Shown here: one piece after another, positions 3,844 through 40,073 of the stretch | Layout: each line of letters begins with the position of its first letter | How positions within the stretch are numbered: position 1 is the first letter of the stretch | From: Scilla litardierei | Taxonomy: Eukaryota; Streptophyta; Magnoliopsida; Asparagales; Asparagaceae | Reading direction: 5' to 3' | DNA: 64,000 nt | Assembly: GCA_030789695.1 (NCBI GenBank) | Contig: CM061140.1 | Coordinates: forward strand, 168,354,319-168,418,318 | Translations under genes and position numbers: made by a program | The notes under the pieces: generated by a model | Database searches by the model: none | Told to the model about the DNA's origin: nothing | Seen by the model: only the letters and a program-made list of their open reading frames with translations

Positions 3844-3961
3844 CCAGCTGAAAAATTCTGACGTTTTGATTTGAATTTTGAAAATTCGTTGAGTGATTTT
3901 CTCCGTGATTTTTGGGACAAAAGTCAAAGAAAATTTGAATTTCAAATCTCAGAATTTTCCC

Positions 3962-3969
3962 TATAAATA
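3962..3969 (+). promoter_or_regulatory. TATA box of the 5' LTR of A
   Basis: TATAAATA follows CCC and lies downstream of the palindrome cluster, where the U3 core promoter is expected. The 3' LTR has the same sequence near 13036. Confidence 0.7.
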
Positions 3970-10293: not shown

Positions 10294-10331
10294 GTAGGGA
10301 GTCGACTACCTCCATGAGGGAGTCGACTACC
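10294..10331. repeat. Internal copies of the LTR palindrome motif upstream of ORF3 in A
   Basis: Two copies of (G)GGAGTCGACTACC, identical to the LTR motif of this element, lie about 400 bp upstream of the ORF3 start codon, outside either LTR. A weaker relative (AGCCGACTACC) is at about 10532. Confidence 0.85.
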
Positions 10332-10717: not shown

Positions 10718-11897
10718 ATGCCTATCAAAGGAATTTTCACCAAGAAGAGAAAAACATCATCTGAAATTGATTCTGAAAAAGAAACCATTCTACCCTATCT
10801 TTTCAAGACCACCACTTATGAACAATTCGTTAAGGTCACTAAGAAACCCATCTTGCATGAACGTTTTGTTAAGCTTAATGATGTTATAAATTATGGCATT
10901 GATAGCTTGCTTGATTTCCAGAACTTGGCCAACCTATTTTCCTCTGAAAATACTTATCTTTGCTACCCAAGGCTTGTGCACTTGTTCTATGCTAACATGG
11001 ACTACGATCTTGCTAAAAAGCCGTTTTATAACCAAAGTCCTTGACACCAAGCTTGCCATTACTGTCAAATCTCTAGGAGAAGCCCTAGGAATCCCATATT
11101 CTAGCATGCTTCTTGATAAAGTACAAATGACTGAAGGAAATATTCTAGAGAGAATGTATTTGCCAGGAAGACATTTTCAGACTAAACTGCCATGTAGCGA
11201 TCTTCGCTATCCGGCAAGAATTTTGGCAAATATATTATCCTATAATATCACTCAAAAGTCTGGAAGTCATTCGATTTTATCAGAAAAGCAAGCCAAATGC
11301 ATCTATGCTATACTAGGTAACATTCGCATCAATTGGGCCAAAGTTATCATGGATTCTATACTTGCTTCAGCTTCTTCAAATAAACCCTCTTCCACTTTAG
11401 CTCATGGGCACTATCTCACTATATTGTTTATTAGCTATAATGTGCCTTTGGATCATGAAACCTCTATTCTAGAACCGGCTCGAGTTTTTGATGTTCATGC
11501 ACTTGGGAGAATGAATCTTCACCATGACCTTGATGAGAACATCCCTGAAGAAAAACTTGCAGCTGAAGGAGGATCCTCATCCTCAAGGAAAGGTAAGAAA
11601 ATTGTGGTTTCAGATTCTGAAGAAGAAGAAGAAGGAGAAGAAGAAAGAGGAAGCGAAGAAGAAGAAGAAGAAGAAGAAGAAGAAGAAGCACCGGCATATA
11701 TTCTTGAGCTTCAAGAAATGCTTCTAAAGAAGATTGGAAAATTGAAGATCTCACAAGAGAAAGGTTTTGAAGATCTCAATCGAAAGGTTGACGACCTTAA
11801 GGAGATCGTCGTGAAAAGCAACAAGATGACTGAGGACACGCTTGTTATGATCCTTGAAGAGATCAAGAAACTGAAGAAGAACAACGGTCATCCTTAG
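10718..11897 (+). pseudogene. ORF3 of element A: accessory protein with plant 'transposon protein' domain, one frameshift
   Basis: The first ~105 codons (10718 to about 11030) contain YPRLVHLFYANM. The reading frame then shifts by one within or near the run CCGTTTTATAACC, and the rest continues to a stop at 11897. Conserved with ORF3 of element B are YPRLVxLFYxN, a following LGExLGIP/LGEILGC-like segment and INWAxVIxD. I recognise this as the family called 'putative plant transposon protein', whose biochemical role is unknown to me. The C-terminal third has a Ser-rich then a long Glu tract encoded by GAA repeats (about 11616-11690), and a Lys/Glu heptad-like coiled coil to the end. Including the frameshift the product would be about 390 residues. 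Its Glu tract creates poly-Leu shadow frames on the other strand. Confidence 0.7.
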
Positions 11898-12324: not shown

Positions 12325-12365
12325 TGATGGAAATTGAATTCCACCCCAAGTGATTTTGATGATGA
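12303..12365. repeat. Inverted repeat spanning polypurine tract and 3' LTR start of A
   Basis: TCATCATCAAAA (12303-12314) is the exact reverse complement of TTTTGATGATGA (12354-12365). An inner GGGG of the purine tract can pair with CCCC in the LTR. Confidence 0.75.
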
Positions 12366-13986
12366 GCACACCAAATGAAAGCTTAAGTGTACTAACTACA
12401 CTAAACTGAAGTGTGCAGAATATGCAAAGTTTTACTCATACTCAAAGAAGCACAAATCTACGCTCAAAGACAAGGACAAACGTGGCTAAGTCAAATGATG
12501 AAGTTCAAAGCTCAAATAGAACAAGAAGCTCAAGTGAAGCTCGCATCCACTTCATCAAATTGATCAAGCTTCCGGAGACATGTCCTAAGTCTATAGTGAG
12601 TGTGTCGTGTCTCTTTAGGGTATTTGTTAAAGCCAAATCATATAGACAAAACACACGCACACAAACAATTTGAAAAGACTTTTAGAAAATCTCTTTTATA
12701 TCTTCAAAAATGTTTTAGAGAGCTTTCTCTAGTCATCATATAACTTCCGTAGTGAAACTTCACACACCCTGGAGTTAACTACCTGTCTGACTAGAAGTGT
12801 TGCAGGAAAAACTCCTCTAGGAGTCGACTACCAACAGTAGGGAGTCGACTACCAGCTGGGATTCAAGATTCCCTGAAACACTCTGGGAGTCGACTACCAA
12901 CAGTAGGGAGTCGACTACCAGCTGAAAAATTCTGACGTTTTGATTTGAATTTTGAAAATTCGTTGAGTGATTTTCTCCGTGATTTTTGGGACAAAAGTCA
13001 AAGAAAATTTGAATTTCAAATCTCAGAATTTTCCCTATAAATAAGAGCTAATTTCATTTGAGAAAACACAACATCTATTGAAAATCAAATCTCTCGTGCA
13101 AACGCTCTTTGAATTCAACGCTCTCTTTCTCTCTAGCCAATTCTATTTTTATTGTTATCTTGTAAAATTCTGTTATTACTTTTTTAAAGATCATACTCTT
13201 GTTTTATTGGCCAAACATTTTTCAAAATACTTATTGCTATTCTCTTTATTTTTGTTTAAAGGATTTTTTGAAAAGCATTAGATCTAGATCACAAAGAATT
13301 CTCTCGTATCTTTGTGTGATCTAGTCTCTTATTCTATCAAGCCACTACACAACTTTGTCTATCATTGATTGGCTATAGAATCGGGTGTAAAAACCAATCT
13401 CCATCAATTTATTGTGGTGTATTGGATATAAGTTTCATTGTGTTGTTGTTGGAACACTAGACAAGTCTAGGTGTTGCCAGTCGGAATTCCTGGTTGAGAC
13501 TAGGTCGTTGGAAATCCTAACGAGTGAAGTTAGGTACTTGTATTTTCTAAGGCAGATAGTGGAAAATCTCGTACCGGATTGGTTAGGGACTGGACGTACC
13601 CGGGTTGCGGGGAACCAGGATAAAATCGCTTGTCTCTGCGTTTGTTTTTCTGTGATTGTTTATATTTCTTGTACAAGCATTTTTCATTTGCTAATCTTAT
13701 ATCTTTGTAATTCCTTATTTATTTATTATTGCAAAGATTGTTTATTTAATTCCGCTGTGAAAAGATCTCTCTGTAAAGATTTATATCTGATTGTAATCTT
13801 TTCTCTATCATATTTGTAAGATTACTTTGTTGATTAAGAACCAAGCGTAGATCACTCTACTTGGCTTCTTAGGCAACATTAGAAGGATTTTATTTGTGCT
13901 AATCTTAACAATCGAAAACGTGTACTATTTGCACAACACTATTCAACCCCCCTTCTAGTGTTGTTTGCCATCCACAGGATCCAACA
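12325..13986 (+). mobile_element. 3' LTR of element A (1662 bp)
   Basis: Full-length copy of 3251-4912 starting TGATGGAAATTG and ending GATCCAACA, then the TSD GAACC (13987-13991). It contains the palindrome pairs at 12821-12917 and the TATA box near 13036. Confidence 0.93.
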
Positions 13987-13991
13987 GAACC

Positions 13992-14537
13992 AACCGACTA
14001 GATGACGATCTAATCTGTTGGGAATCCTTCTTGAACTGACTAGATATCCTTGCTTAATTCAGCCCATTCACTGTTGGTCAATTAGTCGGTCCAAGAAGGT
14101 TCACCGACCGACTAGATGACGATTTAGTCGGTTGGAAATCCTTCTCAGACCGACTAGTTATCCTAATCAATTCAAGTCTATTTGTTGAACAATTAGTCGG
14201 TCCAAGAAGGTTCACCGACCGACTAAATGACGATCTAGTCGGTTGGTGTCTCTTCTCAGACCGACTAGTTTTCCGTGTGAAATTCGACCTTTGTACTGTT
14301 GACCAGTTAGTTGGTTCAAGAAGGATGGTTAATGCATTAAAAGCCAATCTAGTCGGTCCAAGAAGGTTCACTGACCGACTAGTTGTCAATCTAGTCGGTT
14401 GATGATCCTTCTTAGATCGACTAGTTCTTACCCAGATTTCACCATCTTCTCTGTCAACCATCTAGTCGGTCCAAGAAGGTTCACTGACCGACTAGTTGTC
14501 AATCTAGTCGGTTGATGATCCTTCTTAGACCGATTAA
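13992..14537. repeat. Array of inverted TAGTCGGT/ACCGACTA modules in the LTR of E
   Basis: CTAGTCGGT and ACCGACTAG alternate about a dozen times, typically as GTTCACCGACCGACTAG then a short spacer then TCTAGTCGGTTG, forming repeated short hairpins. Relatives are in the B LTR (22645-23184) and upstream of B's ORF3 (26544-26929). Confidence 0.85.
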
Positions 14538-14604
14538 GCAGCTTCAGAATAGAGCAGTTGGGGCATTTAATGCCACGAATTTTGTGACCGTTTTCTCTCT
14601 TCCC

Positions 14605-16667: not shown

Positions 16668-17045
16668 CACTACAAAAAAGTGAGTTTCTTGTGACCAAAC
16701 TTAGTGTCGACTTAAATTTGCTGACACTAAAAGTATACTTTTAGTGTCGGTAGAAGAAAGTCGACATTAGAAAAGCCATTTTTTCGATTCCTACATATAT
16801 GCCGACACCAGAGCTCATATCTTGTGTCGATCTTAAGTTGTCGACACAAGATGATAAATTGTCGACACTACTAGGTGATTTTCTTGTGTCGGCTGCAGAT
16901 GTCGAAACTAAAATGTATACTTTCTAGGGTCGACCTTGGTGGTCGACACTAGAACGTATACTTTTTAGGGTCAGCCTTGTTGGTCAACACTAAAACATAT
17001 ACTTTCTGGGGTCAACCTTGGTGGTCGACACTAGAATGTATACTT
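16668..17045 (+). mobile_element. CACTA-type transposon end with sub-terminal repeats
   Basis: CACTACAAAAAAGTGAG at 16668 has the form of a CACTA (En/Spm) terminal inverted repeat. It is followed by about a dozen copies, in both orientations, of GTGTCGAC/GTCGACAC and relatives, of which the last three repeat with ATACTTT(C/T)T(A/G)GGGTC. Dense short sub-terminal repeats of this type are the usual transposase-binding region. I did not find a matching opposite end or a transposase gene, so it is a fragment or a non-autonomous end. Confidence 0.6.
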
Positions 17046-17057
17046 TTTACTGATATA

Positions 17058-17140
17058 CACTACTACAATATGTGTCATTAACAACGGTTCTTCTGAACAG
17101 TCGGTAATATCAGAAGAACACCCACAGTCATTTTCGTCTG
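17058..17140 (+). mobile_element. Possible second CACTA-like end
   Basis: CACTACTACAATATG follows directly on the sub-terminal repeats of the previous end and resembles another CACTA terminus. There is no partner end. Confidence 0.3.
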
Positions 17141-21846: not shown

Positions 21847-22583
21847 TGTAATGCCCTACCAGCTACTGCACAAGTACTAGAGGGGGGTGAATAGTACTTT
21901 AAAATAATAAGGAGTATAATTCCAAATTAAATTGCAAACAACTACCAAATCAATTTGCGGAAGCTTAAATTGAATGACAACACAAAATTAACAATGCTAA
22001 CAAATGATGTTAATGGGTTCGGATCCACCCAAGTCTCCCCGACTTGTTCCCGGTGATCCTACGTCCCAACCACCCGGATCCCCTCCGGATACTTAGGTTA
22101 GAAACCCTAACCTAAGATTTCCACTATGAATATCTTGTGAAAAACCTTCACAAGATCAAATCATACATGCAATGGCAAAGTGAATCCCACAACCCGGGAT
22201 CACAATCTTCTCTCACAACCGAGAGAACCAATTAGCAATATTAAAGAGTTTAAATGAAATAAACAATCTTACCACAAAATCCTATACCTTGAGGTTTTCT
22301 TACCCAAATGGTGAAATGGAGGATTTGAGGAAGATGAAGTCACCAAGACCTAGCACCAAGGAAATGACCAGCAATCGGTGCCTAGGAATGAGTTGGAGAC
22401 TTGGATCAAGCAATAGCTTGAAGAGCTCACCAAGAACAAGCTTCTCTCTAGATCTAGAAATGAGAGAGAATGAGTTTCTTGTGAGGAAGAGAGCTTTAGA
22501 TTTGAGGGAGAATAGCTATCTCTTTAGAACTCAATGAATCTCTTAATGGCAGCTCTAACCTAGATAGAAATGACCTAGGTTCG

Positions 22584-22591
22584 TATTTATA
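22584..22591 (-). promoter_or_regulatory. TATA box of the B LTR (3' copy)
   Basis: TATAAATA on the minus strand, about 60 bp downstream of the module array. The 5' LTR copy is at 39073-39080. Confidence 0.65.
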
Positions 22592-22644
22592 GGAACCCAA
22601 AAACACAAGTTAGGTCATTCACCAACGGATAGAAATCTGTGAGA

Positions 22645-23184
22645 CTTAGTCGGTCAAAGAACAATCACTGACCGACTAGTTCATCAACTAGTCGGTCAGC
22701 CAAACAACGTGGACCGACTAAGTGAAGATCTGAGAAGAGATAGAATTTCAGACCTAGAATCTAGTCGGTCCAAGAAGACTGTCTGACCGACTAGTTTCAC
22801 AACTAGTCGGTCAGCCAATGAACGTAGACCGACTAAGAGGCAAAATGAACTAGTCTGAATGCAAGTTGACTTAGTCGGTCCAAGAACAAATGTTGACCGA
22901 CTAAAATGTCAACTAATCGGTCACCAAACGTTCTTAGACCGACTAACGGTAAACAGTAGCTTAGGTGAAATTTAGAGTGAACAGTAAGTCACAGCTAGTC
23001 GGTCAAAGAAGCATCACTGACCGACTAGTTCACAAACTAGTCGGTCGGTGAGTCAACGTAGACCGAATAACTGTAAACAGTAAAGTCCAAGAAATTAAGG
23101 AATCAAACTAGTCGGTCCAAGAATAGTTGCCGACCGACTAGATCACCATCTAGTCGGTCAGTACTTGTTCTTGTACCAACTAAC
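22645..23184. repeat. Array of AGTCGGTC/GACCGACT inverted modules in the LTR of B
   Basis: Five modules at ~100-bp spacing each consist of AGTCGGTC, ~16 bases, GACCGACTAG, a 6-7 base loop, CTAGTCGGTC, ~15 bases and GACCGACT. The centre of each is a hairpin with a 10-bp stem. The same array is at 39136-39673 in the other LTR. Confidence 0.9.
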
Positions 23185-23543
23185 ATGCACAAACAAATCC
23201 GAATCGAAGCGCGACGCTTCGAGGAAGTTAGAATGAACTTGTGCAAGGATCCTAGAGCTACGAAATGAGCGTAATGAAGATAGAAACGTAAGATATACTC
23301 AAGGCTTAACATTCTATATATCGAAGCTAAAAGACTATAAATAAAACCTTAATAAACGGTCTTCGAGAGCTTCGATTGAATCTTCATAACTTCCAAAGCG
23401 TCGCAAGAGCTTCAACGAAGCTTTAGGCATGAATATGAGCTTTGGGAAGTGTTGAGATGTCGCTTTGAATGTTCTCGTGAATTTGGCGACGATCTCCAAA
23501 ACTGCGCTCACAAATTGTTAGTTCATGGATTATTTATGTTTGC

Positions 23544-23605
23544 TCATCATCAAAACCAAATCCGGGGAGTCCAATATTCAACATTCTCCCCCTTTTTGGT
23601 GATGA
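23544..23605. repeat. Inverted repeat spanning polypurine tract and 3' LTR start of B
   Basis: On the minus strand, TCATCACCAAAA (23605-23594) is opposed by TTTTGATGATGA (23555-23544), with one mismatch. The inner GGGGAG of the purine tract is complementary to CTCCCC in the LTR. Confidence 0.75.
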
Positions 23606-24581
23606 CAAACCAACATAAATAATAATCAAAAATAATAATTCAAATGTAAAATACTTACTCCCCCTGCATTGATGACACATTAATTCCAAAGAATATATAT
23701 GAATTGCATCAATCAGACGAGTAAGATATATAATGAGAATCGATTTTTGAAATATCGGATTTTGAAAATCCTTATATATATCTTAACTCCCCCTGAATCT
23801 AACATATCAAACTAGATTCTTGGAAATTGAGTTAAATTTTCATTTGCGCTATTTATTATCATTATCTCTCCCCCTTTGGCATTATCCCAAAAATGGGGGG
23901 CATACAACGACAACAACTAGGAAATGTAAAATCCAACATCGGGAGTCGTAGACAATGACGATGGACCAACTTGACACCAAGGGAAAAAAATGTGGAAATC
24001 AAATCAAGGTGTGCCAAAATGTCCATTATCACAAAAAGATCAAAAATCATCAAAAATACCAAATAATTATTCATTTCTTGAATAATGAAACATACTCTCC
24101 AATATTCAATATTCTTGGTTAAATTTGTGCATGGAAAACAATTCTATATAATTATAGAAATATAATCTATTTAACCAAGTTTTTAATCGTCGAGCGACGA
24201 ATTCACATTTCAAATGCATTCAACGAATATATATAAAAAAAAATGCACGACGAATAAATGACAAAGTGAATGACGATGAACATATATATATATATATATA
24301 TGTAGAGACAACATGAGTACATCCAAAAAGATATCACATCGAATATATGAGGTACATCATATCAAGTGCTACATATCATCAAAAAGAAATACATCATACA
24401 TCATCGACATCATCAAAGTATATCAACATACATCAAAACAACATCATAACATAATATCCAACTCCGACATCCAGAAATCGCAAAAATACATCAAAACATC
24501 TCTCAAACCCCATCCTAACCCAAAATGCTCTCACTAAGATATATCATCCAAAGCGAAGTGGAGAGTCCTCGAAACAAGCGA
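23584..24581 (-). other. 3' non-coding region of B with repeated polypurine blocks
   Basis: No gene. On the minus strand, GGGGGAG blocks occur near 23870, 23793, 23662 and directly at the 3' LTR (AAAAAGGGGGAGAA). An (AT)n run lies at 24282-24302. Confidence 0.7.
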
Positions 24582-26273
24582 TCACGAGGAGGTGGCAGGA
24601 TCTGCAGTCTCCGTGGGTCCAGTCGACGGAGTGGACTCAGGATCTGCAGGGAGTAGAGGTGTCTCAACAGATGGAATCGTCGGGGCAGGAGTGGAGATCT
24701 CAGCAACAGGCTCATCAACGGGAATATCAACAGCAGCAGGGGTCTCGACAGAAGCAGCAGCAGTGGCAGTGTCAACAGCAGCATGAGATACATGAGCAGG
24801 CTCGGAAACAGGATCAGCAGCAGGCTCAGAAGGCTGAAGAGCTGAAGCAGTAGGCTCTGGAACACCGGTAGTGGTGCCAACTCCAGGAGCAGAAGTGGAA
24901 GTACCAGCAGCAGCAGCTGTGGCCTCATCGCCACGGGCAAAAGAAGTGACAAGCTCGTCAAGCTCCTCATCGTCCATCTCCTCGGCCTCAGACACTGACG
25001 GAGGAAGATCAATCCCCATCATACGAGCCATACGGCAGACTACCTCCTCAGTACGAGCCAAACGGGAGTCGTGCTGACGAAGTAGGCGTACGACATCGTC
25101 CAATGTAGCAGGGGAAGAGGAGGCTGCAGCAGCTGACGGAGTAGACTGGGAAGCAGATGCGGTAGACCTCTGCACGTGACGAAGCGCCGCTAGAGATTTC
25201 TTCACGGCCGTCGCGTTCAGAGGCGTACCCAAAGGACGCTCATCGTCAGGAGGGAGAGGGACTCGGAAATGTCGAAATACAAGAGTCAACAGACAGGGGT
25301 ATGGAATGTGCGCAGACTTATTGGTCTTGCGTATACACTCGAAAGAATCCATCTTATCGAGTATCACGCGAGCCCAATTAATCTCGCACCCCAAGAAAAG
25401 AGCGTAGATCAATTTCAAGAACGGCTGGGATGGGAGTGAAGAGGATCCATACTTAGGGAGGAGACACGACTTCAAGATCAGGTTAAGAACCCACGCATTC
25501 GGCTTAAAAGATTTCGATGGAACACCAATGAATGCGGAGGGGATAACCTGGAAAATCTCAGAAAGAATAGACTGATCCAAGGAAGAAATGTCGTCTACGG
25601 AAATGTCCGAAGGAAGGAGACCACACGATGAACAACCAAGAATCTCCCCCAAGATTTCTGCCGTGAGAACTATAGGAGTTCCCAAGACAGTCGTCTCAAT
25701 GGAGTGGCTGGCATCGTACTGGCCTCGAATAAGATTGACATAGAACAATTTCACGAGGCGAGGATACGGTTTGGGATTGGCCTTGGGGTCGTATCGGAGA
25801 TAATCTAGAAGACCACTATATGACAGAAGATCAGCAAGGCCGAGAAAATCAGAAAACTGAACGTAATGCTCTAACAACAGTGGACAGTGCTCTATACGGT
25901 TGTACGCTGCGAGACACTGAGGGTCATCGCGGCACAACGATATGTCTACACCGCCGACTGGCATAGGAGCTTTACCCTTAGCCTTACGGGTCTTCGGAGG
26001 TGGAGTGGGTTCCCTAGTAGGCTCATCCTCAGGGATAAATTCAGAGTCGGAATCGGGAGGAGTAGCCGGAGACTGAAGAATAGGCTTCTTGGTCTTAGAT
26101 TTGCGGGGTTTGGCTATCGCAGTCCTAGGCTTCTTAGGAGGAGGCGAAGATGGAGATGCTTGAGTTGACTTGGCACGACGCTTAGGCTTCGGGGGATTCC
26201 TAGGGTCAGAAGGTTGTTCTATGGTCATAGGAGAAGCCCCGGAAGAGGCGATGGGAATTCTCGTCTTAGCCAT
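24582..26273 (-). CDS. ORF3 of element B: accessory protein with plant 'transposon protein' domain
   Basis: Intact frame of about 563 residues from the ATG at 26273; the longer frame to 26342 opens with TTG. The N-terminal ~110 residues are Pro/Lys/Ser-rich and basic, with runs such as PPPKKPR and KPRKSKTKKP that could act in nuclear import. The central domain, about residues 120-370, has YPRLVKLFYVNL, LGEILGC and INWARVILDKM, shared with ORF3 of element A. The C-terminal third is low-complexity Ala/Ser/Pro/Glu. It lies downstream of pol on the same strand, the position of the extra 'envelope-like' ORF described in SIRE1-type elements, but I see no signal peptide or membrane segment in the product from the ATG start. 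Function unknown; probably made from its own transcript given the upstream array and leader. Confidence 0.75.
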   Translation of the reverse strand: MAKTRIPIASSGASPMTIEQPSDPRNPPKPKRRAKSTQASPSSPPPKKPRTAIAKPRKSKTKKPILQSPATPPDSDSEFIPEDEPTREPTPPPKTRKAKGKAPMPVGGVDISLCRDDPQCLAAYNRIEHCPLLLEHYVQFSDFLGLADLLSYSGLLDYLRYDPKANPKPYPRLVKLFYVNLIRGQYDASHSIETTVLGTPIVLTAEILGEILGCSSCGLLPSDISVDDISSLDQSILSEIFQVIPSAFIGVPSKSFKPNAWVLNLILKSCLLPKYGSSSLPSQPFLKLIYALFLGCEINWARVILDKMDSFECIRKTNKSAHIPYPCLLTLVFRHFRVPLPPDDERPLGTPLNATAVKKSLAALRHVQRSTASASQSTPSAAAASSSPATLDDVVRLLRQHDSRLARTEEVVCRMARMMGIDLPPSVSEAEEMDDEELDELVTSFARGDEATAAAAGTSTSAPGVGTTTGVPEPTASALQPSEPAADPVSEPAHVSHAAVDTATAAASVETPAAVDIPVDEPVAEISTPAPTIPSVETPLLPADPESTPSTGPTETADPATSS

Positions 26274-26543
26274 AGCACTACGAGCACAAGCAATCGATGA
26301 TAAGATCAAAAACAACCTAGCACAAACCCTAGAAGCTAACACAAACCCTAGGTTAAAACTAGAAACCCTAGGAGCTAGATGAGATAGAATCGAACCCTAG
26401 GGTAGGAATCGACCTAGGAGAGGGAGGGAGATACCTAGGAGGTGGAGTCGACGGCGGCGGACGGTGGCGATCGACGGAGAGATGGCCGGAAGTCGAAGGG
26501 TTTCGAGAGGGGGTTTGGGGTTTTCGAGTTTGAGCTGAGAGGA
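26274..26543 (-). promoter_or_regulatory. Leader region of ORF3 in B
   Basis: This 270-bp minus-strand segment between the module array and the ORF3 ATG is pyrimidine-rich (CTCTCGAAACCC, CTCCCTCCCTCTCC) with several CTAGGGTTT repeats. It looks like a plant 5' UTR. A donor-like CTCCTAG/GTATCT and an acceptor-like GCTCGTAG lie in it, so a UTR intron is possible, as in element A. No obvious TATA box. Confidence 0.4.
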
Positions 26544-26929
26544 GACCGACTAAAAAATGATTTAGTCGAACGAAATAAGAGAATAAGTCGGTCGGGAAAC
26601 GAAAAGACTCAACTGCCCTAACACACTTAGTCGGTCACAATTCAAGCACTGACCGACTAGATTACGATCTAGTCGGTCGGTCAATGAGCTTGAACCGACT
26701 AAGTCGAAACAGAGGCACAGATGAATTTCTAGGGCAAGAATTAGTCGGTCGCAGTATATTCACTGACCGACTAGTTTTCAATCTAGTCGGTCGGTAAGTG
26801 TACTGTGACCGACTAACGAAAGAAAAAGATATGAGTTAGATATAGGCTTGATCTAGTCGGTCTGAGTTCATTTGCTGACCGACTAGATGAGCATCTAGTC
26901 GGTTGACAAGTGAACTTAGACCGACTAGA
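26544..26929. repeat. Internal copy of the LTR module array upstream of ORF3 in B
   Basis: Three full and one partial AGTCGGTC...GACCGACTAG...CTAGTCGGTC...GACCGACT modules like those of the B LTR, lying between pol and ORF3 and outside either LTR. Element A shows the same relationship with its own motif (10294-10331). Confidence 0.88.
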
Positions 26930-27171: not shown

Positions 27172-28041
27172 CTATATCTCGGATTCACCCATAATCCCCA
27201 ATTCTCGACGCAACCGCACAAAGGAGTCCTCCTTTAGGGGTTTCGTGAAAATATCGGCGATTTGCTTTTGGGTTTCAACGTACACTAATATGATGTCCTT
27301 TTTAGCAACATGATCATCTAAGAAATGGTGTCAGACATCTATGTGTTTTGATCGGGAATGGTGCACCGGATTCTTTGAAAGACAGATAGCACTTTGGTTA
27401 TCCACCATGATAGGGCTAGTATTACAATGAATACCAAAATCCTTCAATGTGTGTCTCATCCAAAGAACCTGGGCACAAGCGACACCGGCGGCAATGTATT
27501 CCGCCTCGGTGGTTGAAAGTGATACCGAATTTTGCTTCTTGGAAAACCAAGAGACAAGAGAATTTCCTAGAAAATGGCAAGTGCCACTAGTACTTTTCCT
27601 GTCGGATTTGCATCCCGCATAATCAGCGTCACTATATGAGACTAACTCATATGTGCTAGATTTCGGATAAAGTAATCCAAAATCTAAAGTGTAACTTAGA
27701 TAGCGAAAAATACGTTTAACCGCTACTAAGTGAGAATCCTTAGGTTGAGACTGATAACGAGCACATATACATACGGCAAACATAATATCGGGCCTACTCG
27801 CGGTAAGATAAAGTAAACTACCTATCATACCTCGATATAGACGAATGTCTACATCTTTTCCGCCCGTATCTTTATCAAGATGCGTTGTAGTGCTCATAGG
27901 AGTCTTTTTCCCGGAGGCATTCTCCATTCCAAATCGCTTTAGCAACTCCACCGTGTACTTTGTTTGGTGGATGAAGATTGCATCGTTCAATTGGCGAATT
28001 TGGAGACCTAAGAAATATTTGAGTTCGCCCATGTGGCTCAT
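27172..28041 (-). pseudogene. pol of element B, C-terminal part (end of RT and RNase H), with a nonsense codon
   Basis: Continues the RT frame broken by element C. It encodes MGELKYFLGLQI of the RT connection, then Copia RNase H with DADYAGCKSDRKSTSG, TTEAEYIAAG and DNQSAICL. The frame has a TGA at 27333-27331 just after SKHIDV. Beyond it, still in frame, typical C-terminal sequence (ADIFTKPL) continues to a TAG at 27174-27172. A CGA arginine codon changed to TGA would explain the break (inferred). The product would be the polymerase-primer-removal half of the Pol polyprotein. Confidence 0.88.
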
Positions 28042-29653
28042 TGATTAGGGTTCAATATTGTATATTTTACCCCTCATTAGATGGCATTTTGTGCATAATT
28101 TGTATTCATTTTGGCTCCGATACGTGTATTTTGATGATATCACTTAATATTGGAGCCTACCGTTTTTATATGCTTAAAACATGATTTTTACAGCTTATTA
28201 GCATCTTCATCTTGGTCTTCTATTATTTTTCAGTTGAATTTCATGAAGTCCCGATTCCAACGCATATTTTTCCAGAATTTTTGGAGGTCGGAGCAATTTA
28301 CTGCAATTTTTGGAAGACAATGTGACGGTGCTGAAAATTTCTGGGCTAGAAAGTCTGCTTTTCCGCTCTTGTGCGGAATTCTGCTATCATTGCAGCATAT
28401 ATTCTGACATAATGATATTTTTCTGGTATTCTACACTTTGTTACGGTTCCATCGCCGCCTGGAACACGTCATTCCGAGGTCGGATGATTTTTCTAGAATT
28501 TTCGCAAGACAGGGTGACGGTGCTGAAAATTTCTGCAGATTGGCCCCATCTTGTGAAGAAATCTGCTAACATTCCAGTGTATTTTCCGGCCTAGTGATAT
28601 TTTTCTGGTGTTGTACACTTTGTTACGGTTCCATCGCCGCCTGGAACACGTCATTCCGAGGTCGGATGATTTTTCTAGAATTTTCGCAAGACAGGGTGAC
28701 GGTGCTGAAAATTTCTGCAGATTTGGGATTAGTTGCGGGTTTGGGCGCGGATCCGACCCGTTTGGGCTGTTTTCAGACCCGAAATTCTGGGTCTATTTCT
28801 TGGACTTTCCTCTCCTCTTTCCCCCGGATTCCACTCTCCTTCTTCTTCATTCTTAGGGTTAGAGGCCATTGGAGAGGAGCAAGAAAGCTTGGAGGAGCAC
28901 TTTGGAAGAGAAAGTTTATGTTTTTCTTAGAGAAATCTTGGTGAACTCTTTCCCTTTCTTTGTGTATTTTGATTTGGTGATTTGTAATGATATTGGATGA
29001 TGGTTTTTAGAGATGAAAATGTCTCTTTTATTGCTATGAGTAGCTAGATCTCATTGTGTGTGGTTGTGTGGTGATATTGCTTGCTTGGGCTATGGAATTT
29101 CAATCTTGCATGTTTAAAAGTTTATGTGGTAGGATTTTTTTGGGATATACTTTGAATTAGGGATCCTAGTGGGTATCCCTAGAGTGGAGTTTGCCTAGTG
29201 GTACCATTCATATATGCTTGGTTGTTTATTATCTCGATTTTCCATACCCTACTTTCATTGCACACCAAGTGTTTGTTAAAATGCCACATCCACCGATTGC
29301 GCTTTCCTTAGCCGGAAAGACAATTGAGTTATCCTCGGATTGAACCCATATGCTTAGCAACCTCATTCCCACACACCACACAAGCTTCCTCGCCTATTTT
29401 CCTCTCCGATTCTCGAACCCTAGGATGTTGGTTTGGTAGATGGTCTCACCCACATTTTCACGCGCATTTCCACCATTAGCTTAGTTGGTTGTAGTTTCGT
29501 CTTTATCTCTCCTTTATTAATTGAATTTGCGATTGCAAAACGACTTGTCCCCGTGATCCGACCCGGTCTCACCGGATATAAATTTATTACTTGACGTCCT
29601 CCTACACTTGGGAGTAGCGCTTAAGCATTACATACTTGAGACGCGTTCAAGCA
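28042..29653 (+). mobile_element. Left LTR of element C (1612 bp)
   Basis: Starts TGATTAGGGTTCAATATTG and ends CGCGTTCAAGCA. It contains a ~140-bp internal tandem repeat around TACACTTTGTTACGGTTCC (about 28405-28730), which creates repeated small frames that also occur in the right LTR. No gene. Confidence 0.93.
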
Positions 29654-29655
29654 AT

Positions 29656-29674
29656 TGGCGCCGTTGCCGGGGAC
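29656..29674 (+). promoter_or_regulatory. Primer binding site of element C
   Basis: TGGCGCCGTTGCCGGGGAC lies three bases after the left LTR and is complementary to the 3' end of plant tRNA-Asp, as in Athila-type Gypsy elements. Confidence 0.85.
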
Positions 29675-29864
29675 AACGGTTTTTGCATTTACATTTTTTA
29701 TTGATTTAGGAAATTTTGACGTGATACATCCTACTATTTAGTGTGAGTCTTTTTTATTCTTTATCTTCCATTTATTATCTTTCATCTTTATTTATTTTTC
29801 ACTTTTTTGAGTCCTTTGTTATCTTTATTTTCAATTTCCTTTATAAAAATTCAAAAAAAAAGCT

Positions 29865-30968
29865 ATGGACTTTAACGACATAAATTCTTTGTATGATGCA
29901 CTTTCATTTTCTTTGCACAGGACCACTTCTTTGAAGCTCAAAATTGCCGGCTTTGCTCAAATTGGCGGTGAATCCTTCTATCAAGCTTGGAGGAGGTTCA
30001 TGGATTTATTAAGCGGCTGTCCACATCATGGATTCACGATAGACCATCTTTTCCAGTTTTTCTACGAAGGGTTGCAGGAGGAGATGCAGGACTACATGGC
30101 AATGTTGGACGATGGAGCTCTATTTGACATGTCACCTGTGGATGCTTGGGAGTACTTGGAGTCCATGGAGGATATGGCACGACCATTGGATGGGACTTCA
30201 GGGAGTGATCCATTTCCGCCAGATCACGATAGCATTGGAGCATCCCTTGACCAAGGAGAGCAAATCGTGGACGCACCCTTGCAACCCTTGGGCGAGGAAC
30301 TTCAATTGCTTATTCAGACACAGGAGGCTCAATCCCGATATTTTCTGAAGAGCATGGAGACTCGAAGCCAGTATATCCATGAGATCATTTCCAGTCTCGC
30401 ATTGCTTGCCTGTTGCTTGGGAGAAGGTAATCAAACCACTCAAAAACTTTTATTATCTGATTTGGATTCATCTTCTCTTGTAGGAGATTTGTGTGAAGAT
30501 GTAGAGGATGAGCGTGAAATTTTGGATGGAGTGGAGGAGGAGACTAGTAGGGCCACGAGCTCATCGATCATTTTGGTGGAGTCCGAACCATGCTCTCCCC
30601 CAATCTTGTCCCAAAATCCATCATTCCTCTCCCCCGTGGGCATGCATCATATGGAGATGGACGCAATCACTTTAGGGAGTTTTCGTCAACTTGATTTAAA
30701 TTCTTTATCTTATGTTGACGACTATATTTGGATCACTTTTGTTGAAAGGCAACGGTGTCGGCTTTGGATTGACATACCCTCTCTCTCGCAGGGCACGATT
30801 GGAAATTTTATGGATGGTGCACTTGTTGGTGTGTTGCTAGGGTCCAAAGTGATTTGTGGAGGGAAGACGCTTGCAGAGGAGCGTAAAGATCTAATTGAGC
30901 AACTTTCCTCACCGTTATACATCCAAGATCCTCCTTTTGACCCCGGTGATCTCCTTCTAGTAGTATAG
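29865..30968 (+). CDS. Gag-derived protein of element C (367 aa)
   Basis: Intact frame. Residues ~30-75 match the retrotransposon Gag core, with GGESFYQAWRRFMDLL, CPHHGF and FYEGL as in Athila-type Gag. There is no CCHC zinc knuckle. The rest is acidic and not recognised. The C-terminus (residues ~280-367) has VDDYIWITFVER and DPPFDPGDLLLVV. Pol is absent, so this is the only coding sequence of C. An intact frame in an element with nearly identical LTRs suggests recent mobility or simply too little time to decay. Start: first ATG of the frame after an A-rich leader. Confidence 0.75.
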   Translation: MDFNDINSLYDALSFSLHRTTSLKLKIAGFAQIGGESFYQAWRRFMDLLSGCPHHGFTIDHLFQFFYEGLQEEMQDYMAMLDDGALFDMSPVDAWEYLESMEDMARPLDGTSGSDPFPPDHDSIGASLDQGEQIVDAPLQPLGEELQLLIQTQEAQSRYFLKSMETRSQYIHEIISSLALLACCLGEGNQTTQKLLLSDLDSSSLVGDLCEDVEDEREILDGVEEETSRATSSSIILVESEPCSPPILSQNPSFLSPVGMHHMEMDAITLGSFRQLDLNSLSYVDDYIWITFVERQRCRLWIDIPSLSQGTIGNFMDGALVGVLLGSKVICGGKTLAEERKDLIEQLSSPLYIQDPPFDPGDLLLVV

Positions 30969-31038
30969 AAATTTTAATTTAATGCACTTTCTATGCTTTT
31001 TAGGATAGTTTTATTTCAATAAACCTCTACTTTTTCAA

Positions 31039-31076
31039 CATTGAGGACAATGTTTGTCTTTAGTTGGGGGGGAGAG
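31039..31076 (+). promoter_or_regulatory. Conserved post-ORF motif and internal purine tract of C
   Basis: CATTGAGGACAATG, a near-palindrome, is followed by TTAGTTGGGGGGGAGAG. This pairing is typical of the segment after the coding region in Athila/Tat elements. From 31080 to 32130 I see no gene. Confidence 0.6.
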
Positions 31077-32130
31077 TAGTAGGTGGTTTTAGGATGTTTA
31101 GTTAGTTGTTTTCGTTTTAAATTTTTTTTTGTTGGCGACATCCATTTTGACATCACCAATATCTTGCGAGCATATAATTGACCCTCCTTGCTCATTTGCT
31201 AGCTTTGTGCTTAGTCCCTTATATGCTTCATATTCATGCATACATTTGGATTCAAATCTTATGTTCAAACTCCTAAATAGTGACTGTCATGCATTTTATT
31301 ACTTTTTCTTCATGGGATCAACTTTAATATGCCATTCATAAAATAGTGCATAATTCGATGAATTTTGTCTTCGATGTGTTTTGGATCAGTTTTGTGCAAA
31401 CTTTGTGATGCACGAGTTGGATTAAGTCATTAGTGTAATTTGGTGTTCAATTTGATGGAATTTGGCCTTGGATATACGCTTGGTTTATGCTTGAGGAGTG
31501 GTTGATTGGTGTGTTGGATCAAAAAAAAGAAATAAAAGAGAAATAAAAGAAAAGAAAAAGAAAAAAAAAAGAATAAGTGCATCGTTCTTCTAGTTTTGTC
31601 AAGTAGCCGGGTCCTCATGAAACATTGGGGATTCGTGTCGAAAGATAAGATTTAGGGGAGTGCACGAGAGAAAAATAAGTGAATCTTGGGTGATTCGAGT
31701 TACTAGGTCCGCGGGGTCCTTTTTGGCCTAATGCCCCAAAATCTTCTGATTTGGGAGTCATTGACCGAACCCTCGTTACATGGGTCATTCTAAGTTTCAT
31801 ATTAAAAAAACATGAATAAACATGATCCACATATCAAACTTCCATGAATTAAGAAAGCTAAGTGTTATTTTTGGCCAAGTTCTTGAAGATTGTGATACTA
31901 TGACACGCTTATGTTTTAATCTCAATGAATGCAAAATTTGCTTGTACTTTGTTGGTTTGAGCCATATTGGAGTTTTGGTCTTGGATTTGCTCTCTTTTAT
32001 GAGTTGGTATATTGGAATTGAGTTTATATTGAAAAAATTTCATGTGCCATGAATATTGTGGAGTTTGATGTTTGCTATATTGTGAATCCGAATATATCGC
32101 TTGTTTTACTAGGGACTAGCAAAAAGCTAG

Positions 32131-32140
32131 TTGGGGGGTG
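32131..32140 (+). promoter_or_regulatory. Polypurine tract of element C
   Basis: TTGGGGGGTG directly precedes the right LTR. Confidence 0.65.
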
Positions 32141-33752
32141 TGATTAGGGTTCAATATTGTATATTTTACCCCTCATTAGATGGCATTTTGTGCATAATTT
32201 GTATTCATTTTGGCTCCGATACGTGTATTTTGATGATATCACTTAATATTGGAGCCTACCGTTTTTATATGCTTAAAACATGATTTTTACAGCTTATTAG
32301 CATCTTCATCTTGGTCTTCTATTATTTTTCAGTTGAATTTCATGAAGTCCCGATTCCAACGCATATTTTTCCAGAATTTTTGGAGGTCGGAGCAATTTAC
32401 TGCAATTTTTGGAAGACAATGTGACGGTGCTGAAAATTTCTGGGCTAGAAAGTCTGCTTTTCCGCTCTTGTGCGGAATTCTGCTATCATTGCAGCATATA
32501 TTCTGACATAATGATATTTTTCTGGTATTCTACACTTTGTTACGGTTCCATCGCCGCCTGGAACACGTCATTCCGAGGTCGGATGATTTTTCTAGAATTT
32601 TCGCAAGACAGGGTGACGGTGCTGAAAATTTCTGCAGATTGGCCCCATCTTGTGAAGAAATCTGCTAACATTCCAGTGTATTTTCCGGCCTAGTGATATT
32701 TTTCTGGTGTTGTACACTTTGTTACGGTTCCATCGCCGCCTGGAACACGTCATTCCGAGGTCGGATGATTTTTCTAGAATTTTCGCAAGACAGGGTGACG
32801 GTGCTGAAAATTTCTGCAGATTTGGGATTAGTTGCGGGTTTGGGCGCGGATCCGACCCGTTTGGGCTGTTTTCAGACCCGAAATTCTGGGTCTATTTCTT
32901 GGACTTTCCTCCCCTCTTTCCCCCGGATTCCACTCTCCTTCTTCTTCATTCTTAGGGTTAGAGGCCATTGGAGAGGAGCAAGAAAGCTTGGAGGAGCACT
33001 TTGGAAGAGAAAGTTTATGTTTTTCTTAGAGAAATCTTGGTGAACTCTTTCCCTTTCTTTGTGTATTTTGATTTGGTGATTTGTAATGATATTGGATGAT
33101 GGTTTTTAGAGATGAAAATGTCTCTTTTATTGCTATGAGTAGCTAGATCTCATTGTGTGTGGTTGTGTGGTGATATTGCTTGCTTGGGCTATGGAATTTC
33201 AATCTTGCATGTTTAAAAGTTTATGTGGTAGGATTTTTTTGGGATATACTTTGAATTAGGGATCCTAGTGGGTATCCCTAGAGTGGAGTTTGCCTAGTGG
33301 TACCATTCATATATGCTTGGTTGTTTATTATCTCGATTTTCCATACCCTACTTTCATTGCACACCAAGTGTTTGTTAAAATGCCACATCCACCGATTGCG
33401 CTTTCCTTAGCCGGAAAGACAATTGAGTTATCCTCGGATTGAACCCATATGCTTAGCAACCTCATTCCCACACACCACACAAGCTTCCTCGCCTATTTTC
33501 CTCTCCGATTCTCGAACCCTAGGATGTTGGTTTGGTAGATGGTCTCACCCACATTTTCACGCGCATTTCCACCATTAGCTTAGTTGGTTGTAGTTTCGTC
33601 TTTATCTCTCCTTTATTAATTGAATTTGCGATTGCAAAACGACTTGTCCCCGTGATCCGACCCGGTCTCACCGGATATAAATTTATTACTTGACGTCCTC
33701 CTACACTTGGGAGTAGCGCTTAAGCATTACATACTTGAGACGCGTTCAAGCA
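32141..33752 (+). mobile_element. Right LTR of element C (1612 bp)
   Basis: Same length as the left LTR; the only difference I noticed is CTCTCC versus CTCCCC near 28813/32912. It ends CGCGTTCAAGCA, then the TSD CTCAT. Confidence 0.93.
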
Positions 33753-36057: not shown

Positions 36058-38307
36058 TTAGACCTTTGGAAGCCAAGTCCAAGTGGACTTAGACTTCCCC
36101 ACATAATTCTTACTATGCACAACATCCGAAAAATAAGCATTCATATACTCTTGTTTTTCATCCATGCTTGTGTCCTTTGGGCTCCAAATAGTGAAAATTT
36201 TGGGAGCCATCATCCTATTGGGTGCATGCATGCGACGTTGATTTCTACATGATGCATGTTGTGGATAGGCATACGGGACATGATGGAATGGTGCACGACG
36301 AGAATTATTCATATGATGAGGTGGGTGTACATATGCATGTGTGAGAACACGTGCGTGAGGGTGTCTCACATGGTGTGCACGTGCCCGAGAATGTGTTGCA
36401 TAAAAATCATCATATGTGTGAGCCGGTGGAGTAGGACGTGTGTTCCTACGTGGCATGTTATTGGTGTACATGTAGGCATGCCCCTTCTTTGGAGGTCCAC
36501 CCAAAGTGGGTTTCTTTCCGAAAGAGGGTGTGGACGAGGTGGAAGCACCATTGGTAGATGAACTACCAATAGAGTGTTTGCTCCCACTCGTTGAGGCTTC
36601 GGAAGTTGGCCTAACAAAAGTAGTGACCGACTTGGATGAATTTCCCATCATATACCCCAAGCCAATGTGGTGTTTGGCCGGAAGTAAATCTTTTAGGATA
36701 TTATCCAAATGGCCCTTACCCTTGTTGAATTTGTTGATTCGGCCCAATGTGTCCTCATATTTCTCTTTGAGAGAACGCAAAGAAGTATCCAAAGTGGATA
36801 TTTGCGATGTGAGCACATAAACACGAGATTTAAGATTCTCGTTCTCAATACTCAAAGTCGAGTTTTGAGAAGTTAAATCCGCTATCTCATGTTCTTCCGC
36901 ATCCTCAATGCTAACATGTTCAAGTTTAGATTTGAGATTCACAATCTCATTTCTTAACTCTTCAACAACGGTGTCGTTGTTGGTGATGATATTCTTAGGC
37001 GATGTTTGAATGCTAGCAAGGTCATCTTTTACCTTAGTATATCTATTTACTAACTTAGTGTATTTTGACCAAAGTTGAGAGTTAGCATTTCTAAGATCAT
37101 CCATCGTTACCTCATTGCTTTCGTCATTACTATCATCGGAAGAGGAGGATCCTTGATCGTGCTCCTCTCTTGCCATGAAACACATGTGCGCTTGCTCCAC
37201 GTGCTCATCGTCCGACTCACCGCTTGAAGAATCATCGGAGTCGGTGAAGGTAGCTCCGACAAGTCCCTTCTTGTTTCCTTTCGTGTACTTCTTGGACTTG
37301 TCATACTTTGGCGCCTTCCATTTCTCCTTTTGCTTATTGAGGGGACACTCCGCTTTCATGTATCCCGGCTTATTGCACTTAAAACACAAAGGAGAGGAAG
37401 AGGCGTTAGAAGAACCAAATTTACCTTTGGTCTTGAAGTTACCTTTTCGGAAGAAACGGTTGAACTTCTTGGCCATGAGTGCCATGGATTTCAAGTCCAA
37501 CTCGTTTTCTGATTCTTCATCATCGGTTGATGTGGATGTGGATGGAGCGGCTTTGAAAGCAATAGCCTTTTTCTTTGGCTCGTCTTGCTTTAGATAAGAC
37601 TTCATCTTTTCTTGCAATTTGAGCTTGCTATCCTTGCGTACCTCGTACGACATTAAAGTACCCATTAGTTGAACTACGGTGTACTTATTCATGTCATTAC
37701 CTTCCTCGATGGCGAAGGTGCGTTTCTCCCAAGAAGAAGGAAGTCCTTCGATAAGCTTTGAGCACTTCTCCTTTTGAGTGTAGGACTTGCCGAGGGCCTC
37801 TAACTCGTTTATTATGTCAACGAAGCGAGCGTAATATTCTTTCATCTTCTCGCCCTGTTGCATATGAAACATTTCGTAATATTTGTTTACGACTACGAGT
37901 TTAGAGTCTCTTACCCGACTCGTCCCTTCATGTAGTATGAGGAGGGAGTTCCAAATTTGATATGCACTCTTACATGTGGATATCTTATTGAAGTCCTCGG
38001 GCTCCAATGCGCATTGCAAGGCGTTCATTGCCTTGGCATTGCTTACCTCCGCGGCGACCTCCGCGGTTGTCCATTTCTCAAAGTCTTCTTCTTCGGGCTC
38101 GATGTACTCCTTCATTGTAGTCCTCCATAAAGATGCACTTCGGAGGAAGGTTTCCATCCGACATTTCCAGTACCCGTAGTTGGTACCGTTGAAGAATGGA
38201 GGCCTCGTAGAGGAATGTCCTTCCATCACCGAAGATGCTCCTTCACGGTTCCTGAAGGTGTCATAGTTGGAAGGTGAACGCACGGTCTTGTTGTCGTTGG
38301 CAGACAT
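36058..38307 (-). CDS. gag of element B (749 aa)
   Basis: Intact frame. Residues ~35-50 hold RPPFFNGTNYGYWKCRM, the Copia Gag signature, followed by the helical Gag core. A zinc knuckle near residue 306 reads CFKCNKPGYMKAEC: the usual histidine ligand is tyrosine, which should weaken zinc and RNA binding. Next come a Ser/Asp/Glu acidic segment with AHMCFMARE, a long coiled-coil region (about residues 410-540), a Ser/Thr/Gly-rich linker, a His/Arg-rich stretch (about 630-700), and a C-terminus ending TWTWLPKV. At 749 residues it is much longer than simple Copia Gag, as usual for Sire-type elements. The ATG at 38307 lies just after the primer site. Confidence 0.88.
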   Translation of the reverse strand: MSANDNKTVRSPSNYDTFRNREGASSVMEGHSSTRPPFFNGTNYGYWKCRMETFLRSASLWRTTMKEYIEPEEEDFEKWTTAEVAAEVSNAKAMNALQCALEPEDFNKISTCKSAYQIWNSLLILHEGTSRVRDSKLVVVNKYYEMFHMQQGEKMKEYYARFVDIINELEALGKSYTQKEKCSKLIEGLPSSWEKRTFAIEEGNDMNKYTVVQLMGTLMSYEVRKDSKLKLQEKMKSYLKQDEPKKKAIAFKAAPSTSTSTDDEESENELDLKSMALMAKKFNRFFRKGNFKTKGKFGSSNASSSPLCFKCNKPGYMKAECPLNKQKEKWKAPKYDKSKKYTKGNKKGLVGATFTDSDDSSSGESDDEHVEQAHMCFMAREEHDQGSSSSDDSNDESNEVTMDDLRNANSQLWSKYTKLVNRYTKVKDDLASIQTSPKNIITNNDTVVEELRNEIVNLKSKLEHVSIEDAEEHEIADLTSQNSTLSIENENLKSRVYVLTSQISTLDTSLRSLKEKYEDTLGRINKFNKGKGHLDNILKDLLPAKHHIGLGYMMGNSSKSVTTFVRPTSEASTSGSKHSIGSSSTNGASTSSTPSFGKKPTLGGPPKKGHAYMYTNNMPRRNTRPTPPAHTYDDFYATHSRARAHHVRHPHARVLTHAYVHPPHHMNNSRRAPFHHVPYAYPQHASCRNQRRMHAPNRMMAPKIFTIWSPKDTSMDEKQEYMNAYFSDVVHSKNYVGKSKSTWTWLPKV

Positions 38308-38334: not shown

Positions 38335-40073
38335 TGTAATGCCCTACCAGCTACTGCACAAGTATTAGAGGGGGGGTGAATAGTACTTTAAAATAATAAG
38401 GAGTATAATTCCAAATTAAATTGCAAACAACTACCAAATCAATTTGCGGAAGCTTAAATTGAATGACAACACAAAATTAACAATGCTAACAAACGATGTT
38501 AATGGGTTCGGATCCACCCAAGTCTCCCCGACTTGTTCCCGGTGATCCTACGTCCCAACCACCCGGATCCCCTCCGGATACTTAGGTTAGAAACCCTAAC
38601 CTAAGATTTCCACTATGAATATCTTGTGAAAAACCTTCACAAGATCAAATCATACATGCAATGGCAAAGTGAATCCCACAACCCGGGATCACAATCTTCT
38701 CTCACAACCGAGAGAACCAATTAGCAATATTAAAGAGTTTAAATGAAATAAACAATCTTACCACAAAATCCTATACCTTGAGGTTTTCTTACCCAAATGG
38801 TGAAATGGAGGATTTGAGGAAGATGAAGTCACCAAGACCTAGCACCAAGGAAATGACCAGCAATCGGTGCCTAGGAATGAGTTGGAGACTTGGATCAAGC
38901 AATAGCTTGAAGAGCTCACCAAGAACAAGCTTCTCTCTAGATCTAGAAATGAGAGAGAATGGGTTTCTTGTGAGGAAGAGAGCTTTAGATTTGAGGGAGA
39001 ATAGCTATCTCTTTAGAACTCAATGAATCTCTTAATGGCAGCTCTAACCTAGATAGAAATGACCTAGGTTCGTATTTATAGGAACCCAAAAACACAAGTT
39101 AGGTCATTCACCAACGGATAGAAATCTGTGAGACTTAGTCGGTCAAAGAACAATCACTGACCGACTAGTTCATCAACTAGTCGGTCAGCCAAACAACGTG
39201 GACCGACTAAGTGAAGATCTGAGAAGAGATAGAATTTCAGACCTAGAAATCTAGTCGGTCCAAGAAGACTGTCTGACCGACTAGTTTCACAACTAGTCGG
39301 TCAGCCAATGAACGTAGACCGACTAAGAGGCAAAATGAACTAGTCTGAATGCAAGTTGACTTAGTCGGTCCAAGAACAAATGTTGACCGACTAAAATGTC
39401 AACTAGTCGGTCACCAAACGTTCTTAGACCGACTAACGGTAAACAGTAGCTTAGGTGAAATTTAGAGTGAACAGTAAGTCACAACTAGTCGGTCAAAGAA
39501 GCATCACTGACCGACTAGTTCACAAACTAGTCGGTCGGTGAGTCAACGTAGACCGACTAACTGTAAACAGTAAAGTCCAAGAAATTAAGGAATCAAACTA
39601 GTCGGTCCAAGAACAGTTGCCGACCGACTAGATCACCATCTAGTCGGTCAGTACTTGTTCTTGTACCAACTAACATGCACAAACAAATCCGAATCGAAGC
39701 GCGACGCTTCGAGGAAGTTAGAATGAACTTGTGCAAGGATCCTAGAGCTACGAAATGAGCGTAATGAAGATAGAAACGTAAGATATACTCAAGGCTTAAC
39801 ATTCTATATATCGAAGCTAAAAGACTATAAATAAAACCTTAATAAACGGTCTTCGAGAGCTTCGATTGAATCTTCATAACTACCAAAGCGTCGCAAGAGC
39901 TTCAACGAAGCTTTAGGCATGAATATGAGCTTTGGGAAGTGTTGAGATGTCGCTTTGAATGTTCTCGTGAATTTGGCGACGATCTCCAAAACTGCGCTCA
40001 CAAATTGTTAGTTCATGGATTATTTATGTTTGCTCATCATCAAAACCAAATCCGGGGAGTCCAATATTCAACA
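38335..40073 (-). mobile_element. 5' LTR of element B (1739 bp)
   Basis: Nearly identical to 21847-23583, with the same module array (39136-39673) and TATA box (39073-39080). It is followed by the TSD ACCTG (40074-40078). Confidence 0.93.

Follow-up and report, generated by a model that had tools for sequence, protein, structure and literature searches.

In this work, a 64,000-nt stretch of the Scilla litardierei genome (the window; NCBI GenBank assembly GCA_030789695.1, contig CM061140.1, positions 168,354,319 to 168,418,318 of the forward strand) was found to contain a retrotransposon, element B, that carries an array of palindromic box modules between pol and its third open reading frame (ORF3), in addition to arrays of the same module family in its long terminal repeats (LTRs). 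Judged from the sequence, this internal array probably, though far from certainly, acts at the DNA level as a group of regulatory sites that serve a transcript of ORF3 distinct from that of the LTR. Among the observations that speak for this reading are the following: the exact box octamers of B occur only in the U3 region of the LTRs and directly upstream of ORF3, ORF3 is open in a copy that is only about 0.18 million years (My) old, and, in the full modules, the boxes and their spacing are kept while 26 of 78 module columns are variable.

A full module is 74 bp in length and contains four half-boxes in the order > < > <, which gives it a hairpin-like form with arms of about 37 nt. Three full modules and one partial module were found between pol and ORF3 at 26544-26927, in agreement with the original prediction, and the array lies outside both LTRs of B, which is flanked by CAGGT on its two sides (Table 1). 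The exact octamers TAGTCGGT/ACCGACTA occur 64 times in the window, and all 64 fall within four arrays, namely those in U3 of the B 5' LTR, in U3 of the B 3' LTR, in the internal array (octamers at 26545-26927) and in a further LTR, called C. All 13 exact octamers of the B internal region belong to the internal array, whereas base composition predicts about 0.009 of them for a length of 394 bp; all 13 are upstream of ORF3 and none is downstream. The two-box pattern ACCGACTAG-N8-CTAGTCGGT, with no more than one mismatch, matched 16 times in the window and not once in any of 100 shuffles. Loose matching (two mismatches on nine bases) gave 162 matches in the window with only 75 of them within arrays, so loose matches alone carry little meaning. 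Each B LTR contains 20 half-boxes within two mismatches, and the last module in the LTR is followed, at a distance of about 56 bp, by a TATAAAT near 22591. With regard to a CpG island at the boxes, the CpG observed/expected ratio of the internal array is 1.29 at a GC content of 0.43, and other parts of B likewise reach 1 or more.

By its signature features rather than by a reverse transcriptase tree, element B is assigned to the Ty1/copia Sireviruses (SIRE lineage), as a young member. The two LTRs are 99.4% identical (Kimura two-parameter distance 0.0046), and at a substitution rate of 1.3e-8 this corresponds to an insertion age of about 0.18 My. The gag and pol products are of the copia type (PF14223, E = 1.1e-26; PF07727, E = 2.2e-66, plus integrase domains). 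A primer site, TGGTATCAGAGC, which we take to be complementary to met-tRNA, lies 2 nt past the 5' LTR, and a polyC-rich integrase signal, CACCCCCC, is present near 21885, close to the 3' end of the LTR. Several identical polypurine tracts, most of them behind the third ORF and the last adjoining the 3' LTR, are a Sirevirus signature (PMC2829016), and the final AGGGGGAG octamer of B (23593) starts 10 bp ahead of the 3' LTR (23583). The pol gene is interrupted by a nested LTR element (28042-33752) and has a second lesion, an in-frame stop at 27331-27333 in the 3' fragment; ORF3 and gag are still open. The nested element has LTRs that are 99.94% identical across 1612 bp, each with a 182-bp tandem duplication, and it contains a Retrotrans_gag ORF.

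The original prediction had described the array before ORF3 as an internal copy of B's LTR array, and this holds for the module family only, not for recent copying. We compared 12 modules, five from the B 5' LTR, three from the internal array and four from C. This set included neither the five modules of the B 3' LTR, which nearly duplicate those already chosen, nor any degenerate module from C or the internal array. The mean identity between B LTR and internal modules was 0.719 (15 pairs), against 0.726 between B LTR and C LTR modules (20 pairs). The corresponding values were 0.754 within the B LTR (10 pairs), 0.739 within the internal array (3 pairs), 0.669 between internal and C modules (12 pairs) and 0.861 within C (6 pairs), and at the 26 variable columns (those with no residue common to at least 9 of the 12 modules) B LTR and internal modules shared an identity of 0.41. 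Because the internal array is as distant from B's LTR as the LTR of C is (71.9% versus 72.6%), even though the two LTRs of B are 99.4% identical, a recent copy of B's own LTR is ruled out, and the module sequences identify the internal array as an old, separate member of the family.

How distinct the internal array is from B's LTR array is another matter. Label shuffles over the three groups showed a greater likeness within arrays than between them (equalled by 0 of 2000 shuffles when all columns were used and by 4 of 2000 with the variable columns), driven mainly by the uniform C array. For the B LTR versus the internal array alone, the observed value was reached by 2 of 56 partitions when all columns were used and by 21 of 56 with the variable ones. 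One column separates the three internal modules from the nine LTR modules, and six of 220 partitions, including the observed one, equal this; the support values in a module tree were 46-77. A distinct class of internal modules was rejected, and B's two arrays are at most slightly distinct. Three of 36 spacer pairs reached p ≤ 0.02 (200 shuffles), one of them an internal-LTR pair (p 0.01); we took this as noise and not as spacer conservation.

The spacing of the boxes is far more regular than the sequences between them. Among the 47 neighbour distances between boxes within one mismatch (three arrays, that of the B 3' LTR left out), all 23 of the '><' type are 23 bp and all 12 inner '<>' distances are 19 bp, with the other 11 '<>' distances ranging from 41 to 91 and a single '>>' distance of 43. 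The full modules thus have a fixed pitch, which is 42 bp in B and C; in a second element of the window, A, it is 21 bp. With 10.5 bp per helical turn of DNA, these values amount to about four and two turns, suggesting that the sites lie on one face of the helix. Only 10 of 432 box cells deviate from the consensus, and none of the 10 is matched by a change on the partner arm, from which it appears that the boxes are held by sequence.

The box consensus of B includes an ACCGAC core. Of the 95 RCCGAC sites in the window, 73 are located in the four arrays, 16 of them in the internal array. CCGAC is the core of the C-repeat/dehydration-responsive element (CRT/DRE), and MCIRE, a cold-inducible alfalfa retrotransposon, carries it in its LTR as B does, with an internal array not mentioned for MCIRE in the available parts of the source (PMC5059998). 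The core suggests AP2 factors of the DREB/CBF type, and hence cold or drought, as the input of the array. Elsewhere in the window, a 41-bp tandem repeat with GTCGAC is present at 16901-17046, and four RCCGAC sites lie at 16746-17100.

Element A, on the plus strand, is an independent case of the same layout with another box, GGGAGTCGACTACC. Its linker box pair lies between pol and ORF3 and is identical to the boxes of its own LTRs, with different bases in between; a degenerate third box (two mismatches) occurs at 10528. Both AGTCGACT octamers of the A internal region are upstream of ORF3, where 0.09 would be expected. ORF3 of A is a homologue of that of B, with 31.5% identity over 149 aa (E = 3.9e-12). 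Given that a homologous ORF3 is here preceded by a different box, the same as in A's own LTR, the linker boxes follow the LTR of the element and not the ORF3. The A ORF3 (10718-11897) is broken, its homology to B ORF3 being spread over two reading frames.

The third LTR, C, has B-type modules and spans 2555-3250 and 13987 to about 15439 (right end placed by eye); element A, flanked by GAACC, sits within its array and divides it. C is preceded by two AGGGGGAG tracts (2152 and 2477), and no match to B ORF3 was found ahead of it within the window; any ORF3 of C would fall outside. A further cluster of AGTCGACT boxes at 59908-60030 (GGGAGTCGACTCAT, AGGAGTCGACTCCT), which begins with two boxes at a distance of 22 bp, adjoins a TATATATA stretch and may be the cis-region of another LTR.

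The layout itself is already published. Bousios et al. (2010, BMC Genomics 11:89; PMC2829016) described palindromic LTR boxes in 13 Sireviruses, which occur also in the linker of the nine with an envelope-like gene (ENV), where 77 of 79 linker boxes are upstream of ENV, and, as reported there, in the linker of none of the four without ENV. They proposed a regulatory role and favoured an internal promoter, without identifying one, crediting the idea to Peterson-Burch and Voytas (2002). These RM boxes resemble those of B in being palindromes with a CGG-CCG core that occupy the upper half of the LTR before the TATA box and form a linker cluster upstream of the third ORF, with one consensus per element for both places (table 3 of PMC2829016). 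They differ in arrangement: in B the two halves of a box stand at a distance of 14 bp and form part of 74-bp modules with four boxes each. Related cores (GTCGGACGTCCGAC, CGGTCGACCG and CGGTCTGACCG) are listed in the same table for Usier, Vitis and Osr10, which also have an ENV-type ORF and linker boxes (6, 2 and 12) but whose box halves are adjacent or nearly so; the likeness is one to the published table, not to DNA. The palindrome arrays in the LTRs of maize Ji/Opie are likewise cis-region palindromes with strong predicted folding (PMC5311732; PMC10760457), whereas OPIE-2 and PREM-2 are given neither a third ORF nor linker boxes in PMC2829016. Soybean SIRE1 is, like B, a Sirevirus with an envelope-like ORF after pol, and differs from B, in which about 0.9 kb separate the end of pol (placed by eye) from ORF3. 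Neumann et al. (2019; PMC6317226) reported that 74% of SIRE elements carry an additional ORF on the 3' side, and that these fall into 19 groups of low mutual similarity. As far as the available parts of PMC2829016 go, its supplements aside, what is added here is the 42/21-bp pitch and the contrast between A and B, which have homologous ORF3s and different boxes. A literature search on Sirevirus palindromes, small RNA, internal promoter, splicing, ORF3 and helical spacing listed no title or opening of an abstract on box pitch or on such a contrast.

If the internal array regulates ORF3 separately, its boxes would be binding sites for a host transcription factor that were duplicated long ago in the Sirevirus lineage and kept in two places. 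The copy in U3 would control the LTR promoter, and the copy in the linker between pol and ORF3 would drive ORF3 through a separate, TATA-less transcript initiated within the pyrimidine-rich leader. Protein binding, the identity of the factor, the start in the leader and the leader intron are the steps that we infer. The leader-like segment that had been noted up to the ORF3 ATG is indeed present, 271 nt from the last box to the ATG (26273), pyrimidine-rich and free of ATG. The LTR core promoter (the TATAAAT near 22591) has no counterpart between the array and ORF3, and the segment 26937-26274 contains no TATA(A/T)A, only two bare TATA, both inside array spacers. Any ORF3 promoter would therefore be TATA-less, with a leader of its own. 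The proposal that U3 was co-opted as a promoter of ORF3 can thus be retained in part: a regulatory role fits the anatomy, the published hypothesis and element A, but neither a recent copy of B's own LTR nor a transfer of the core promoter does.

A number of points weigh against separate regulation of ORF3. Besides the missing TATA motif, the constant pitch shared by B and C goes back to one inherited trait, and the degenerate internal module departs from it with distances of 41 and 43 bp. The main box of A lacks CCGAC, so that a DREB-type factor cannot serve both elements. The leader of A, unlike that of B, contains ATGs. Six further Sireviruses with ENV have no boxes (PMC2829016), which means that boxes are not a general need of the ENV gene. 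To these are added the weak splice acceptor of B and the RNA structure of the modules, both of which bear also on the alternatives considered below.

The first of these alternatives places the role of the array at the RNA level, as a row of long hairpins in the genomic RNA that would affect its stability, nuclear export, packaging or the access of ribosomes to ORF3, with the 3' U3 copy acting likewise. The 10 of 17 full modules that were folded gave stable hairpins of -41.2 to -49.7 kcal/mol (z -8.0 to -12.1). The modules had a covariation score of 0.205 against 0.149 in shuffles and 84.9% paired cells against 81.2%, neither reached in any of 500 shuffles, and across the 12 modules the pairing of cores with their own arm exceeded that in shuffles, 179 of 20000 of which reached the observed value. 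However, cores paired no better with their own arm than with other arms of the same array (4320 of 20000 as high), so the covariation may reflect shared ancestry, and pairs changed on both sides were not in excess (10 versus 10.4 in shuffles; 367 of 500 as high). In eight of the 10 deviating box cells a C opposite G is replaced by T, which keeps a G-U pair in the sense RNA, and the modules of the B LTR have 17 G-U to 5 A-C, a skew that a pure DNA-site model does not need; over the 12 modules, however, sense-strand G-U and A-C stand at 36 to 29 (p 0.46), with C even (13 to 13) and the internal modules skewed in the wrong direction (6 to 11). The absence of partner-arm changes at the deviating boxes is a further point against pairing as the constraint, as is the finding that the LTRs of A have no CG-containing inverted repeat with arms of at least 7 and a loop of up to 8 (the box region of A was not folded). 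Although certainty is not to be had, the modules look like sequence-specific sites first and hairpins second, and we regard a role in RNA as unlikely.

A second alternative derives ORF3 expression from the LTR promoter, through a splice to an acceptor directly ahead of the ORF3 ATG; splice acceptors have been predicted in this way for Athila and BAGY2 (PMC2829016). The array would then do something else or nothing. In A, a good acceptor (top 3.7% of AG sites, scored, as all splice sites here, with splice weights) abuts the ORF3 ATG. The acceptor before the ATG in B is weak, with 24% of AG sites scoring at least equally, and both leaders contain a better-scoring acceptor than the one that adjoins the ATG. 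The local donors, at 10631 in A (top 0.3% of GT sites) and at 26434 in B (top 2.5%), would be superfluous under LTR-driven splicing, donors near the 5' LTR being outside this comparison. These candidate leader introns hint at local initiation, plausibly in A and weakly in B. As the placement of the boxes in both elements would also be left unexplained, we hold splicing from the LTR to be quite improbable.

The least probable alternative is that the array reached the linker passively, when the element recombined or switched template with an LTR, and that it is functionless, or a target of host small RNA only. In maize, the palindromic arrays in Sirevirus LTRs are hotspots of small RNA (PMC5311732; PMC10760457), cores and spacers look unconstrained in sequence and the six ENV-bearing elements mentioned above manage without boxes. 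Against this, boxes and spacing persist although divergence in the cores is close to saturation, element A has the same layout with another box, and the published linker boxes are found in nine of nine box-bearing elements with ENV and in none of four without (PMC2829016).

Concerning ORF3 itself, its highest mean Kyte-Doolittle hydropathy over 19 residues is 1.59, and the family that it matches, PF20167, is not an envelope family. A protein search gave no match at E 0.001 among 7991 scored candidates, scans of viral contigs with a piece of pol and with ORF3 gave nothing confirmed, and no literature was found that links the name of PF20167 with 'retrotransposon'. The box pattern turned up in two viral and four bacterial contigs, with one palindromic match each, which we took as chance. 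A structure model of residues 110-350 had a mean pLDDT of 40.3 and was discarded. A host-type gene is also present in the window, an ORF for a glycosyl transferase of family 8 (48942-49970; PF01501, E = 4e-48).

Table 1. Coordinates of retrotransposon features in the window
Feature	Position	Strand	Remarks
Element B	LTRs 38335-40073 (5') and 21847-23583 (3')	minus	CAGGT flanks on both sides
B 5' LTR	38335-40073	minus	8 substitutions and 2 gap columns relative to 3' LTR
B 5' LTR U3 array	39136-39672	minus	five modules
B gag	36058-38307	minus	open; copia-family match
Internal module INT_3	26854-26927	minus	half-box order > < > <; hairpin -49.7 kcal/mol, z -11.7
Internal module INT_2	26742-26815	minus	hairpin -44.8 kcal/mol, z -11.0
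Internal module INT_1	26628-26701	minus	hairpin -41.2 kcal/mol, z -8.3
Degenerate/partial internal module	26544-26593	minus	boxes at 26544 (exact), 26563 (2 mismatches) and 26585 (1 mismatch); irregular spacing
ORF3 leader	26274-26543	minus	pyrimidine-rich; candidate intron donor 26434, weak acceptor 4 nt before ATG
ORF3	24582-26273	minus	563 aa, open throughout; Pfam PF20167, E = 3.3e-17
Polypurine octamers AGGGGGAG (four)	23586-23875	minus	starts 23875, 23794, 23665 and 23593; all after ORF3
B 3' LTR	21847-23583	minus	
B 3' LTR U3 array	22647-23182	minus	five modules
Element A	LTRs 3251-4912 and 12325-13986	plus	GAACC flanks
A 5' LTR boxes	3745-3845	plus	four GGGAGTCGACTACC, of which one has a mismatch; two pairs, each with a distance of 21 bp
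A linker boxes	10297-10331	plus	two exact GGGAGTCGACTACC (10297, 10318), 21 bp apart, identical to A's LTR boxes
A 3' LTR boxes	12819-12919	plus	four per LTR, one with a mismatch
LTR C array	13987-14538	plus	four full and degenerate modules, split by insertion of element A

In summary, how the third ORF of Sireviruses is expressed, if at all, was left open in the articles considered here, where the idea of an internal promoter dates from 2002 (PMC2829016). The window offers a compact case of it, with a young copy, an open ORF3, a segment of 664 bp, a CCGAC box from which induction by cold or drought would be expected, and, in element A, a different box at the same place. It is conceivable, if rather doubtful, that the LTR promoter and the ORF3 promoter form a two-gene regulon under the same host factor, read box by box on one helix face with boxes about every two turns, in which both sites change together upon box turnover between families, as the homologous ORF3s and different boxes of A and B would suggest. 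If the LTR and the linker do answer to one factor, the third ORF would be a co-regulated gene of the element and not a passenger.
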